From Bacteroidota bacterium (GTDB lineage Bacteria; Bacteroidota; Bacteroidia; Bacteroidales; VadinHA17), in contig JADFDS010000008.1 of the NCBI GenBank assembly GCA_018262715.1, forward strand, positions 24,259 to 88,258: a stretch of DNA of 64,000 nucleotides, given 5' to 3'. This document shows, piece after piece, positions 3,466-59,925 of this stretch. Each line of letters begins with the position of its first letter. Positions within the stretch are counted from its first letter, which is position 1. The position numbers were made by a program, and so were the translations under genes. Below the pieces are notes generated by a model. It had not been told where the DNA came from. It saw only the letters and a list, made by a program, of their open reading frames with translations, and did no database searches.

Positions 3466-3618
3466 TTTTACAATGCCGGATCCCCTAAGGGAAATTTTTA
3501 TCATATGTTAATCTTCTACAATGCTGAATGGCCTGCGGCCAAAATCACAAATCGCACATCGCACATCTACAATCCTTTATGGCCTGCGGCCAAAATCGCA
3601 CATCGCAAATCGCAAATC
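3466..3618 (+). repeat. Family A element: ACAATGC box + hairpins + AATCGCA/CATCGCA heptamers
   Basis: TTTTACAATGCCGGATCCCCTAAGGGA; then two copies of ATGGCCTGCGGCCAAAATC(G/A)CA followed by period-7 CATCGCA/AATCGCA. Confidence 0.85.
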
Positions 3619-24270: not shown

Positions 24271-27200
24271 TCACAACAGATCAGCAGGCAGGTTGAGGGA
24301 GTAATTGTACGGAAGGAATACGGTTACCTCGGTGCCAGATGCCTTGCCGTTGTCATACAGGTCAGTCAGGTTGAATGTGATTTTTTCCCTGTTCACCTTA
24401 TTGAGAGTATCCACAATACCTGAAATATTCTTCAGTCCCGTGCCGGTGCCGTGGGTACGCATTTTCGCAGCAGCAGCCCTTCCTATTCCGTTGTCACGGA
24501 TTTTCACTTCCACCCCTCCTTCGAGGTTCATGATGCTTATCTCAAGGATCCCCCGCTCCTTCTTGTTTTCAAGGCCATGTTTTATCGCGTTTTCAGCGAA
24601 CGACTGTATGATCATCTTTGGTACGGGACTCTTCAGGTTTACGTCAGGTGCAACATTTATCCTGTATTCGAACCTGTTGCCAAAGCGCAGTTTTTGTAGT
24701 TCACAGTAGCGTGTAACGAACTCAAGCTCCTCCTCCAGCGGCTTCAGGAGGGCGTTGCTGTCAGCGATAATGGAACGAAGCAGGTTTGACAGTTTTATGA
24801 AATAGTTATAGGCTTTTTCCTTTTCGCCTTTCATTATAAGTGACCCGACGGAGGTAACGGCATTGAACGTGAAATGCGGGTCAAACTGTTTTATCACCGA
24901 GTTTAGCTGCAGCCTGTATGCCTCAGCCTGAATGCGGGCAGTTATAACCCTCCTTTCCAGTACAGCTTTTCGTATCTGGAATGAGAGGAACACTATCAGC
25001 CCGAGGGCTATAAGAGCCATCAGTGCAATAGCGACTTTTGACTGGATGAATGTTGGCACAACGCTGACCTCCAGTTTATCGGGGTCTTCAGACAGAACTC
25101 CGTCGGCGTTTATCGCCTGGACTTCGAAAGTATATTCGCCGGGAGGCAGATTGGTGTAAACAACTGATCGCTCTGCGGTCTTTTCTGACCAGTTGTCATT
25201 AAAGCCCGCCATTCTGTAACGATACCTGACACCCTCCGGATTTCTTGTCGAGATACCGGTGTAGCTGATTCTTATACGGTTCTGTCTTCCCCTGACCCTC
25301 AGGAAGCTGGTGGTGTCATAGAACAGGGAGGCCTCCAGCGCCGTTTTCCAGGGTGTTTCTTCGTCCTGGAGCTCGACTTTGGTAATGTGGTTCATGGGAG
25401 GATATGTGTTCCTGCTGATCTTATCCGGATCAAAACGGATCAGCTTGTCAGAGGTCAGAATCCACCATCTGCCTTCCTTATCCTTTATAATTCCGTTGTC
25501 CTGGCAGTCATTGCCCGGGAATCCCTGACTCCTGCCTGTTATGGAATAATAATCGGGCTGCCCTGAATAATATTTGTCAAGATCGATGATGCAGATATCC
25601 ATCATTCGTCCGATGATCAGCCTGTGGTTTCCCAGGTCACGGATGACACTGGCAGGAAGGTTGACCTCTTCGGGCAGGGCCCTGTCAAAGACAGGCTCGT
25701 TCGGATCGCATATGTACAGGCCGTCAGAGCCCGCACTCCAGATGTTTCCCATGTGGTCGCAAACCACTCCCCATACCATCTCGGCCGGGGCTGGCGATGA
25801 ACGGAACGGGATGAAATTTTTCCCGTCAAAATAAACCACACCGTAGTGTCCGGCCAGCCAGTAATGGCCCTCGTGATCCCTGGCGACACTCTCCACTATT
25901 CCGTATCCATACCAGGACATCTCCTCATGGATGGTTACCCTGCCATCCCTGATGTGGAACAGGCCCCGGTCAGTCCCGACAAATATGCTTTTATCGACGG
26001 GATCCTCGTAGATGATACAGACCTGGTACGGATCGGGAGACAGATCTGGCAACCTGAATCTTCTGCCATCCCAGATCAGCACACCCTCTACTGTTGAAAA
26101 CCATATCTCGCCGTTGCTCAGGGTGGTGCTCCCCCTGAAGAAGGCCACCGGGTGGCCGAACAGCGCCTGGTATTCATTTTTTCCCCGGAATTTTTCCCCG
26201 TCAAAGTATCTCAGTTCACCTTCGACAGAACCGGTCCAGATTCCTCCGAGAGGATCGGCCACCACAGCCCAGGTTTCCTCCGGTAACCCGTTTTCCCTGT
26301 CATATGTTACGAATGCCTGTGACATAAGCCTGTAGATGCTGGTTTCCGTGCCAGCCCAGATTGTCCCCTCCCGGTCCTCATAGTACATCGCGAGGTTACC
26401 GCTTTCCCAATAGAATGGTTCTATGGTCGGGAAGAGGGCATCTGACATGTACCGGTACCGGACCTGGCCATCGACTATGTCAATTTCGTAGACATCACTT
26501 TTGTTGAGTGGTTTCAGCTGGCCCTTTTCATAGGCGAAGGCTTCATTATTTTTGTCTATCAGGTAGAGGAGTGAGTCGCGCTGATTGGCCGCTGCGACTG
26601 AAAAACTGGTGCCCCGGAGCAGCGGATGGCGGGAGGCGAAATCGGTGTACCTGCCGTTTTCAAAAAGGAGAATTATCTGGTTGTCATTGTCGATTAAAGC
26701 TGAAAGGAAGAATGAATTGGTGTCACGTCCGATTGCCACCCTGTCGAGCTGTTTGACCCTGAATGAATCAGGGATGGGATAACTTTCGAAGTTTGCCCCG
26801 TTGAAGCGAGCCACCCCGTTCGCGGTGATGGCCCATATTATGCCCCCCCTGTCTTCAATCACCGAGGTTATAAGGTTTGACGGCAGGCCGTCCTTGCGCA
26901 GGTAGGAATTGAAGGTATAACCGTCGAATCTTGCCAGGCCGTTCCTGGTGGGTATCCAGAGGTATCCCCTGCTGTCCTGCACCACGGATGTCGACTGTGT
27001 CTGTGGAAGGCCGTCGTCGGAGGTATATTCCCGGTAGGAGTAAGTCTGGGCACGGAGGGAGAGGCCTGTTGTTGCAAGCAAAATGACAAGCAGCAGGGCA
27101 GGGAGCCGTGCAACTGTTTGCGTCAGGGCAGAGAGCCTTGCAGGCGCTGGCAACAGGGCAGGATACCGTGCAGCTGTTTGCGTCAGGGCAGAGAGCCTTG

Positions 27201-27354
27201 CAGGTGCTGGCAACAGGGCAGGATACCGTGCAGCTGTTTGCGTCAGGGCAGAGAGCCTTGCAGGTGCTGGCAACAGGGCAGGATACCGTGCAGGCGCCAG
27301 CAACAGTACAGCCGCCGGCCGCATAACCCCTCGTACTCTCTTGTCCAGCTTCAT
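24271..27354 (-). CDS. two-component sensor with Reg_prop propeller, Y_Y_Y domain and LytS-type kinase
   Basis: YTSDDGLPQTQSTSVVQDSRGYLWIPTRNGLARFDG repeats; NLPPGEYTFEVQAINADG; QFDPHFTFNAVTS. Confidence 0.9.
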   Translation of the reverse strand: MKLDKRVRGVMRPAAVLLLAPARYPALLPAPARLSALTQTAARYPALLPAPARLSALTQTAARYPALLPAPARLSALTQTVARLPALLLVILLATTGLSLRAQTYSYREYTSDDGLPQTQSTSVVQDSRGYLWIPTRNGLARFDGYTFNSYLRKDGLPSNLITSVIEDRGGIIWAITANGVARFNGANFESYPIPDSFRVKQLDRVAIGRDTNSFFLSALIDNDNQIILLFENGRYTDFASRHPLLRGTSFSVAAANQRDSLLYLIDKNNEAFAYEKGQLKPLNKSDVYEIDIVDGQVRYRYMSDALFPTIEPFYWESGNLAMYYEDREGTIWAGTETSIYRLMSQAFVTYDRENGLPEETWAVVADPLGGIWTGSVEGELRYFDGEKFRGKNEYQALFGHPVAFFRGSTTLSNGEIWFSTVEGVLIWDGRRFRLPDLSPDPYQVCIIYEDPVDKSIFVGTDRGLFHIRDGRVTIHEEMSWYGYGIVESVARDHEGHYWLAGHYGVVYFDGKNFIPFRSSPAPAEMVWGVVCDHMGNIWSAGSDGLYICDPNEPVFDRALPEEVNLPASVIRDLGNHRLIIGRMMDICIIDLDKYYSGQPDYYSITGRSQGFPGNDCQDNGIIKDKEGRWWILTSDKLIRFDPDKISRNTYPPMNHITKVELQDEETPWKTALEASLFYDTTSFLRVRGRQNRIRISYTGISTRNPEGVRYRYRMAGFNDNWSEKTAERSVVYTNLPPGEYTFEVQAINADGVLSEDPDKLEVSVVPTFIQSKVAIALMALIALGLIVFLSFQIRKAVLERRVITARIQAEAYRLQLNSVIKQFDPHFTFNAVTSVGSLIMKGEKEKAYNYFIKLSNLLRSIIADSNALLKPLEEELEFVTRYCELQKLRFGNRFEYRINVAPDVNLKSPVPKMIIQSFAENAIKHGLENKKERGILEISIMNLEGGVEVKIRDNGIGRAAAAKMRTHGTGTGLKNISGIVDTLNKVNREKITFNLTDLYDNGKASGTEVTVFLPYNYSLNLPADLL
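27093..27300 (-). repeat. 60-bp tandem repeat inside sensor-kinase signal region
   Basis: GGGCAGGATACCGTGCAGCTGTTTGCGTCAGGGCAGAGAGCCTTGCAGGTGCTGGCAACA about 3.3 copies; encodes (LLPAPARLSALTQTAARYPA)n. Confidence 0.95.
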
Positions 27355-27423
27355 TATCAGTGTTCTGCATGTAAATATATCTATTTAGTCAGGAATATAA
27401 AATGAGGGTGGGCAAACAATCGA

Positions 27424-27600
27424 AGGGCATTGGAATTACGATTTGAGATTTGAGATTTGCGATTTGAGGCTTTTGGCCGTAGGCCATGCAGCATTGTAGA
27501 ACTGGTCATTGATGGATGGCGATGGTCGTAGACCATCAGGCATTGTAACAGGCATAGCTACCCCCTTTGGCCGTAGGCCAAACCAGAGTGCCCCGATGGG
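27424..27600 (-). repeat. Family A element with several hairpins
   Basis: ATTTGAGATTTGCGATTTGAGG heptamers; TTGGCCGTAGGCCA, GATGGTCGTAGACCATC and TTTGGCCGTAGGCCAAA; GCATTGTAGAA/GCATTGTAAC boxes. Confidence 0.85.
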
Positions 27601-27638
27601 GCTGATAACTTTCTGATTATGCTTAATGTGAGTGCAGG

Positions 27639-28064
27639 CTACTTCGAGGCCAGCAGCCAGGCATCCGGAAAATTGTTGCCCTTCAGGGTTTCGAGCGCTG
27701 AAAGTGCTTCCGCGGTCGTGGAATACCTTCCGTAGCTGACCCTGTAATATCCATTTGTGGTTGCGGGAAGGACAAACATATCAGCCTGAAGCTTACCGGC
27801 ATACTCCTCGGCCATTCTGCCAGCCTGATCAATGTCGGTGAAGCTTGCTACGATCAGGTAGTTGTATTTTACCTGGTTATTGTCAGCCGGCGGCGAAACA
27901 GTGTTGCCTGTCACCGGAGTGGCGACATTCTCATAATCCGTAAATGAGTTGACTGATACTGAGGGATAAACAACGTCAAATGAAGACTCCTCTTTGGAGA
28001 ATGTGTTCACCCAGAAGTAAACTACCATGAACAGGAGGCCGCTAATCAAGGCAACTTTCTTCAT
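27639..28064 (-). CDS. SPOR domain protein with N-terminal TM
   Basis: NYLIVASFTDIDQAGRMAEEY...NGYYRVSYGRYSTTAEALSALETLKGNNFPDAWLLA. Confidence 0.82.
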   Translation of the reverse strand: MKKVALISGLLFMVVYFWVNTFSKEESSFDVVYPSVSVNSFTDYENVATPVTGNTVSPPADNNQVKYNYLIVASFTDIDQAGRMAEEYAGKLQADMFVLPATTNGYYRVSYGRYSTTAEALSALETLKGNNFPDAWLLASK

Positions 28065-28257
28065 CTGGTAATCATTCCTTGTTTATAATATATAACCAGA
28101 TTTATATGAATAATGTTCCGCTTCTACTTGCTAATCCAAATTTACGCCATGAAATAAGCGAAATCAAGTTTTTTTAACCGCAGTTCTCAACAATGAATAG
28201 AAGTTTCAACCGGTCAGGGCTGTTTTTGGCAGACGGTGCGGGGGAGGGTGTGGCATT

Positions 28258-28284
28258 GTAAAAGAGCCGGCATCATGCCAGCTC
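28258..28284 (-). terminator. Rho-independent terminator of tRNA-Val-derived unit
   Basis: Minus strand GAGCTGGCATGATGCCGGCTCTTTT. Confidence 0.65.
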
Positions 28285-28298
28285 CTGCGTCTTCACTG

Positions 28299-28406
28299 TG
28301 GGGCGTACTGGAATTCCGCCTGCTGGCGGACAAGCGAACCAGTGACCTCTTCCGTCAGCTGACGGATCCGCCGGTTGGCGGACTAAACCAACTGAGCTAA
28401 CGTCCC
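28299..28406 (-). pseudogene. tRNA-Val-like gene disrupted by palindromic insertions
   Basis: Minus strand GGGACGTTAGCTCAGTTGGTTTAG-[TCCGCCAACCGGCGGA][TCCGTCAGCTGACGGA]-AGAGGTCACTGGTTCG-[CTTGTCCGCCAGCAGGCGG]-AATTCCAGTACGCCCCA. Confidence 0.75.
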
Positions 28407-28643
28407 ATTCAGTGCAAGTTTGATTTTGATGACTCTTGCCTGTCATCCGCCAGTTGGCGGACTAAACCAACTGAGCTAACGTCCCATTCAGTGCAAGTTT
28501 GATTTTGATGACTCTTGCCTGTCATCCGCCGGTTGGCGGACTAAACCAACTGAGCTAACGTCCCATTCAGTGCAAGTTTGATTTTGATGACTCTTGCCTG
28601 TCATCCGCCAGTTGGCGGACTAAACCAACTGAGCTAACGTCCC
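28407..28643 (-). repeat. 79-bp tandem repeat, 3 units, each carrying a tRNA-Val 5' segment
   Basis: CGTCCC marker at 28401, 28480, 28559 and 28638, spacing exactly 79; unit GGGACGTTAGCTCAGTTGGTTTAG-TCCGCCAAC(T/C)GGCGGA-TGACAGGCAAGAGTCATCAAAATCAAACTTGCACTGAAT. Confidence 0.95.
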
Positions 28644-32631: not shown

Positions 32632-32782
32632 TACAGTTCTACAATGCAGTATGGCCAAAATCGCACATCGCACATCGCAATTCTGTATGGCCAAAATCGC
32701 ACATCGCACATCGCACATCGCAATTCTGTATGGCCAAAATCGCACATCGCACATCGCACATCGCAATTCTGTATGGCCTGCC
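32632..32782 (+). repeat. Family A element with 36/43-nt higher-order repeats
   Basis: TTCTACAATGCAGTATGGCCAAAATCGCACATCGCACATCGC; TATGGCC spacing 36, 43, 43 (one heptamer difference). Confidence 0.92.
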
Positions 32783-39404: not shown

Positions 39405-39550
39405 TGCGATTTGCGATTTGCGATGTTGCGATGTTGACCCAGACCAACAGGCATTTTAGATGTGCGATCTGTGATTTGCGATTGCCGATCATCCTCGTGG
39501 ACGCGGTCCCGATAGCCGGAAGTTGTCGGGGGGGGCAGGCATTGTAGCAC
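39405..39550 (-). repeat. Family A element, composite
   Basis: TTGCGATTTGCGATTTGCGATGTTGCGATG ... GCATTTTAGATGTGCGATCTGTGATTTGCGATT ... GCATTGTAGC. Confidence 0.85.
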
Positions 39551-58087: not shown

Positions 58088-58117
58088 TTTACAATGCTTT
58101 ATCGCCTACGGCGAAAA
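58088..58117 (+). repeat. Family A box + hairpin without heptamers
   Basis: TTTACAATGCTTTATCGCC-TAC-GGCGAAAAT. Confidence 0.75.
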
Positions 58118-58882: not shown

Positions 58883-59038
58883 ATGACCTTCAGACCTTCA
58901 GACTTCAGACCTTCAGACCTTCAGACCTTCAGACCTTCAGACCTCAGACCTCAGACCTCAGACCTTCAGACCTCAGACCTTCAGACCTTCAGACCTTCAG
59001 ACCTTCAGACCTCAGACCTTCAGACCTCAGACATATGA
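58883..59038 (+). CDS. 51-aa ORF encoded wholly by the 7/8-nt repeat array
   Basis: ATG at 58883; MTFRPSDFRPSDLQTFRPSDLRPQTSDLQTSDLQTFRPSDLQTSDLQTSDI*; TGA overlaps wza start as ATGA. Confidence 0.4.
   Translation: MTFRPSDFRPSDLQTFRPSDLRPQTSDLQTSDLQTFRPSDLQTSDLQTSDI
58886..59032 (+). repeat. Family C tandem array (CTTCAGAC/CTCAGAC)
   Basis: About 19 head-to-tail units of 7 or 8 nt ending 3 nt before wza ATG. Confidence 0.97.
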
Positions 59039-59841: not shown

Positions 59842-59925
59842 CTTCTACAATGCTTGATGCCCTACGGGCAAAATCGCACATTGCACATCGCAAATCTACA
59901 ATGCTTGAACTCCTACGGGAATCGA
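59842..59925 (+). repeat. Family A element between wza and wzc
   Basis: CTTCTACAATGCTTGATGCCC-TAC-GGGCAAAATCGCACATTGCACATCGCAAATCTACAATGCTTGAACTCC-TAC-GGGAATCG. Confidence 0.88.

Follow-up and report, generated by a model that had tools for sequence, protein, structure and literature searches.

Dispersed REP-like hairpin elements in Bacteroidales are probably the non-autonomous ends of a REPtron-like system with an IS200-clade Y1 transposase

The window, i.e., the whole stretch of DNA that was analyzed (64 kb), contains eight full or near-full copies of a short element at four sites, starting at positions 3468, 3516 and 3567, at 27471 and 27520, at 58089, and at 59845 and 59896, while degenerate remnants are present at 32639 and 39405-39547. 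The element has a length of about 29 nt and the consensus 5'-YTACAATGCTTTAT-stem-AA, in which the stem of 4-7 bp carries a TAC or TGC loop. Written out, the 29 nt read 5'-YTACAATGC(TTT)AT-stem-TRC-stem-AA, and copies chosen by the box alone resulted in the consensus cTACAATtCTT.AT plus stem. The covariance model R2, which was built from 28 copies, was used for searches with cmsearch, and the E values of the full matches in the window ranged from 1.5e-9 to 1e-3. All copies of the window lie outside of coding sequence, although about 91% of it is open reading frame; the one apparent coding overlap was with a spurious ORF across tRNA-Met. A location mostly between genes, as proposed by the sequence-only reading that preceded this analysis, is thus confirmed.

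Most of the sites are tandem doublets or triplets with a spacing of 49-51 bp. The triplet on the plus strand starts with a divergent copy with the hairpin CCCTAAGGG (3468-3496, 27.7 bits with R2). It is followed by two copies with the hairpin TGGCC-TGC-GGCCA, one at 3516-3544 (42.5 bits; the hairpin was also found by folding of the single-stranded DNA) and one at 3567-3595 (41.7 bits), 51 bp past the preceding one. Two heptamer runs belong to this site, CGCACATCGCACAT at 3553-3566 and CGCACAT(CGCAAAT)2 at 3597-3617, both on the plus strand.

The second site is located on the minus strand in the intergenic region 27355-27638, between a SPOR gene (27639-28064, minus strand) and a propeller/histidine kinase gene (24271-27354, minus strand). 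It comprises a copy with the hairpin TGGCC-TAC-GGCCA, which is followed by degenerate heptamers (27471-27499, 41.7 bits), a copy with the hairpin GATGGTC-TAC-GACCATC (27520-27548, 36.9 bits, again with a single-stranded DNA fold), and a hairpin without a box, TTGGCC-TAC-GGCCAA (27566-27580), which was seen in the sequence and as a partial R2 match with an E value of 0.08. Close to this site, at 28120-28560, the window contains four tandem tRNA-Asp-like fragments that are broken up by TCCGCCAACTGGCGGA palindromes; ARAGORN and Rfam gave no tRNA call for this region, and the corresponding position in congeners is occupied by a plain tRNA-Asp-like sequence. The palindromes have the appearance of a further REP-like family, inserted in or next to tRNA-Asp.

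The copy at 32639-32660 (plus strand, 16.9 bits) consists of the box and the 5' arm only, so that the earlier description of a copy without second hairpin arm was correct. Downstream of it, three CGCACAT heptamer blocks with TGTATGGCC half-arms between them are found at 32662-32761 (plus strand). The cluster at 39405-39547 (minus strand) had been described as a further copy of the same layout. A box (39539-39547), an altered box (39451-39459) and heptamers (39409-39422) are indeed present, but a proper TRC-loop hairpin is absent, and R2 gave only E values of 0.7-2.4 for this cluster.

The remaining copies are on the plus strand. A single copy with the hairpin TCGCC-TAC-GGCGA and without heptamers is located at 58089-58117 (45.0 bits); for this site no usable orthologous anchor pair for an empty-site comparison was found. 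The doublet, which is flanked by a polysaccharide-export gene and a chain-length/kinase gene, consists of a copy with the hairpin TGCCC-TAC-GGGCA (59845-59873), the heptamer run CGCACATTGCACATCGCAAAT (59875-59895) and a second, divergent copy 51 bp past the first one (59896-59924, 21.3-21.5 bits). Here the comparison of loci revealed an empty site in five congeners: the interval measures 127 bp in the window, where it contains two units, versus 10-20 bp in G006, G007, G010, G013 and G020. G018, G003 and G001 hold other units, and in G014 the interval is 181 bp long and unrelated or decayed in sequence. A different dispersed repeat of about 110-150 bp is present nearby, at 58884-59033 between a NusG-like and the polysaccharide-export gene; its copies are 83-98% identical and occur on many contigs of the window's genome as well as in G019, G021, G006, G010, G013, G016 and G018.

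On its own, the box is hardly more frequent in the 64-kb window than expected by chance (20 matches with one mismatch versus 12.4 expected). The box together with a TRC-loop hairpin is found beyond chance, with 12 matches in the genome versus one for the reversed control. Together with the cmsearch results, this pattern search bears out a dispersed repeat in both orientations with an invariant box and loop. A covariance-model scan of the genome and its relatives, which the earlier reading had suggested, gave 67 copies at E<=1 in the window's genome (34 at E<=0.01 with strict filters), at least 145 in G003, 138 in G002 and 126 in G018, and 224 copies in selected loci around known copies with a total length of 392 kb. 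A pattern search with TACAATGCN{60,70}D produced many overlapping rows and was left out of the counts.

Head-to-tail units are mostly 48-51 bp apart, corresponding to a period of about 49 bp, and sometimes 29-30 bp without a spacer (L159); 48 of the 69 spacings below 200 bp between neighbours on the same strand fall at 47-53 bp. Arrays that lie on opposite strands are convergent and have their boxes on the outer side (L158, L137, L070), and the inverted pair L071:254-307 folds into one long single-stranded DNA structure with two hairpins (z -5.5). Several contigs of G003, G002 and G001 (e.g., L131, L137, L189) stop or carry N gaps within element arrays; the family thus probably limits assembly, and the copy numbers are underestimates. 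The genomes are MAGs, in which repeats break contigs and can conceal gene copies. A CRISPR array was considered and rejected, because the arms vary between units and the "spacers" are duplicated along with the units.

The heptamers had been read as an integral tail of the element. All six tandem CGCAMAT runs of the window are indeed no more than 115 bp away from an element or a remnant of one, but most copies elsewhere lack heptamers, and thus the tail is not a fixed module. Another heptamer run, TGCCTAC/TGCCGAC, accompanies some copies (L156), and in arrays both kinds, CGCAMAT and TGCCKAC, were seen to fill the space between units (L156:1850-2400, L182:1950-2200). The heptamers resemble products of slippage in the space of about 20 nt between units and are an optional add-on; those of the arrays are presumably similar to the short tandem heptamers known from cyanobacteria.

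The hairpin arms differ between copies and nevertheless stay paired, as had been noticed before. In 137 distinct copies, 99.1% of the stem cells are paired, and four of the five pairs vary on both sides; the covariation score was 0.604, versus 0.169 in shuffles and at most 0.148 in slid registers. Because this set had been picked with the structured model, the test was repeated with copies picked by the box alone. In that set 87.6% of the cells pair, versus at most 48% in slid registers, and at least four of the five pairs are formed in 86% of the copies, versus at most 18.5% in slid registers. The covariation demonstrates maintenance of the hairpin but not a cellular role. The same covariation is expected if a transposase recognizes and copies the elements, or if the arms are repaired with the hairpin as template, and therefore the earlier idea of selection on structure, in the sense of a cellular function, is not supported.

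The earlier reading had also raised a link to a REP-type Y1 transposase. A Y1 partner does exist, but it was found in relatives only. It is a Y1 (HUH) transposase of about 160 aa, which starts with MKPG[TS]FTQ and has the motifs DH[IV]H, WQ and Y---Q--HH. The congeners G001, G018, G006 and G009 encode one such protein each, with the element beside the gene, and these proteins are 68-78% identical to that of G018. No match was obtained in a protein search of the window's genome, and a profile search of this genome, which is 98.4% complete, revealed no PF01797 protein. In G001 the Y1 gene is flanked by the SPOR gene and the propeller/histidine kinase gene, and G018 and G006 have it in this neighbourhood as well, together with the SPOR or propeller gene, tRNA-Asp and a histidine kinase. 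The corresponding site of the window is the intergenic region 27355-27638, and its alignment to G001 skips the Y1 gene, so that the hairpins alone remain. The absence of the gene from both the site and the genome implies that the elements are probably stranded, non-autonomous and REP-like. The SPOR gene tree does not decide between gain and loss of the Y1 gene; by parsimony from synteny, vertical descent at one site and loss of the gene in the window's lineage is the simplest and most likely reading. No Y1 of the partner kind was detected in G002 and G003, which are among the element-richest genomes, and thus the present copy number does not track the gene.

For an independent analysis, 84,980 species genomes were scanned with an alignment of the four proteins, using protein patterns only. 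The scan resulted in 40 loci, mostly in MAGs of Bacteroidales and other Bacteroidota; 36 loci are from genomes other than the four of the genus. The motif Y---Q--HH is present in 38 of the 40 proteins, and the other two are read with a frame break; the HuH motif is DH[IVL]H or NHVH, and WQ is nearly universal. A separate script searched these loci, ignoring the box, for TRC loops closed by a perfect stem of 5 bp or more. Such a hairpin is located within 300 bp of the gene at 39 of the 40 loci, at 27 of them on both sides, and the sole exception is G001, which has an assembly gap there. The hairpin density is 7.6/kb near the Y1 gene versus 0.09/kb at distances above 1 kb, an enrichment of about 82-fold. 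Hairpins upstream of the gene are mostly on the minus strand and downstream ones mostly on the plus strand, and often two are about 50 bp apart, which is the spacing of the dispersed arrays. Most of the 40 loci also gave a score with R2, a model that contains the box.

At control Y1 loci of the order such hairpins are much scarcer (at least one with a TAC loop at five of 12 loci, about 1/kb), and thus the loop is not exclusive to the partner subclass. At L062:1300-1950 a Y1 gene with another motif context (DHCH, YIENQ) has TAC-loop hairpins on both sides, and hairpins of a similar kind may therefore serve related Y1 subclasses. In a set of 198 genomes from the order, Y1 genes are present in 16 of 20 genomes with element matches versus 75 of 177 without (Fisher p 0.0017, phylogeny ignored); the element search was strictly filtered, and the counts are therefore lower bounds. 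The number of Y1 copies per genome across the order is 1-6 at E<=1e-20, a threshold that includes distant relatives.

Taken together, the elements are quite probably non-autonomous REP-like repeats, i.e., the dispersed ends of a REPtron-like system that involves a low-copy Y1 (HUH) transposase of the IS200 clade. By analogy with established work on IS200/IS605 transposases and TnpA_REP (PMC8266576), the transposase would bind the folded TRC-loop hairpin on single-stranded DNA, probably on the lagging-strand template, and recognize the loop and the box. The YTACAAT box would serve as cleavage or guide sequence, and the tyrosine would cut and, by strand transfer, join units and thereby disseminate them. 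Tandem units would afterwards expand and contract at 49 bp. The lineage of the window most likely lost the transposase, so that its copies are now stranded.

An ordinary IS200/IS605 element, whose left and right ends would be the hairpins and whose internally deleted derivatives (MITE/PATE-like) would be the dispersed copies, would do without a REPtron and is an unlikely alternative. The protein models point in its direction: the match to PF01797 is 7.6e-20, a match to the IS200 model was obtained for each of 25 members, two of the genus proteins (57 and 63) are above the cut-off of 55 of NF033573 (IS200/IS605) and a third is just under it (50), while the REP-transposase model NF047646 was not reached (15-20 bits versus a cut-off of 80). 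A PDB sequence search gave only weak matches (best E 0.065; 2xm3/2xma/2xo6, labelled "transposase"). The hairpins flank the gene on both sides, as expected for ends, but they are mutually inverted, whereas the ends of IS608 are not inverted relative to each other. In addition, the 49-bp tandem arrays do not fit, nor does the single gene copy in G001, G006, G009 and G018, three of which share the neighbourhood, and the survey of Y1 transposases describes the subclass in question as not having IS properties (PMC6006769).

A structured RNA or transcription signal of the host, such as a terminator or a stabilizer of mRNA 3'-ends, would also have a hairpin, covariation and an intergenic position. 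It is nevertheless very improbable, because a terminator-like site was not found at the two sites tested, an Rfam search of the window revealed no family besides tRNA, and the elements vary in presence between congeners and cluster at the Y1 gene. Local slippage together with mutational arm-to-arm correction in palindromes would produce covariation in the absence of any recognition or mobility. Replication slippage is suggested by the heptamer runs and by identical spacers between tandem units (L158, L156), and hairpin-templated repair is able to produce compensatory changes. However, the common box, the dispersal over many contigs on both strands and the 82-fold enrichment at one transposase gene are left unexplained, and as the full account it is hardly credible.

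The preferred reading, a REPtron-like system, accounts for a large class of assembly-breaking intergenic repeats in these genomes. The motifs DH[IV]H, WQ and Y---Q--HH match TnpA_Y1 subclass 1.2, an assignment by motifs and not by a tree with the published proteins. This subclass was described in 2018 as low-copy, occurring in Cyanobacteria and Bacteroidetes, and without IS properties, with "no" in the REP column (PMC6006769). In the open-access PMC literature it is without a known substrate until now, and it gains a concrete candidate with a box, loop, stem and spacing that suits TnpA_REP cleavage assays, while gene-bearing and gene-less congeners form a paired system for the fate of REP-like repeats after transposase loss. 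It is an even call whether subclass 1.2 represents a second, independent origin of REP-type domestication, in which an IS200-clade transposase turned into a low-copy resident, spread its own hairpin class through Bacteroidota and left orphan arrays behind after repeated gene loss.

With the IS200/IS605 family (IS608, ISDra2) the system shares the HUH-Y1 transposase clade and subterminal hairpins. The YTAC box 5' of the hairpin presumably resembles the TTAC left cleavage site of IS608. In contrast to IS200/IS605, the hairpins are inverted and not on the same strand, often with two per end about 50 bp apart, and a single gene copy (one Y1 per genome, but draft MAGs can collapse repeats) is accompanied by hundreds of repeats without the gene. 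Subclass 1.2 of the published survey agrees in motifs, size (about 150-160 aa), low copy number and occurrence in Bacteroidota, but the survey lists it as "no" for REP, whereas a clear flanking and dispersed hairpin family is present here (PMC6006769). The class 3 TnpA_Y1 with atypical hairpins are also REPtron-like genes with many dispersed copies (about 600 in Solibacter), but they differ in protein class, CnGA foot and phyla (PMC6006769). REPs and REPtrons with TnpA_REP (RAYT) have in common with the present family short dispersed intergenic hairpins, a conserved 5' motif, inverted pairs and arrays, a low-copy Y1 gene with flanking repeats, and orphan repeats where the gene was lost; a short palindromic, extragenic repeat in many copies and a Y1 gene flanked by inverted repeats are found here as well. 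The GT[AG]G tetranucleotide of the REP definition (PMC6006769) was not found at the 5' foot of the hairpin; instead, the YTACAAT box lies further 5', with YTAC 9 nt from the stem. The very short stem, the TRC loop and the 49-bp head-to-tail arrays also differ from REPs, and the transposase has Y---Q--HH instead of Y---NP. As both the GT[AG]G foot and a Y---NP transposase are missing, the elements are not filed as a canonical REP family; the system is REPtron-like in its working, and the elements are called a REP-like family of TnpA_Y1 subclass 1.2.
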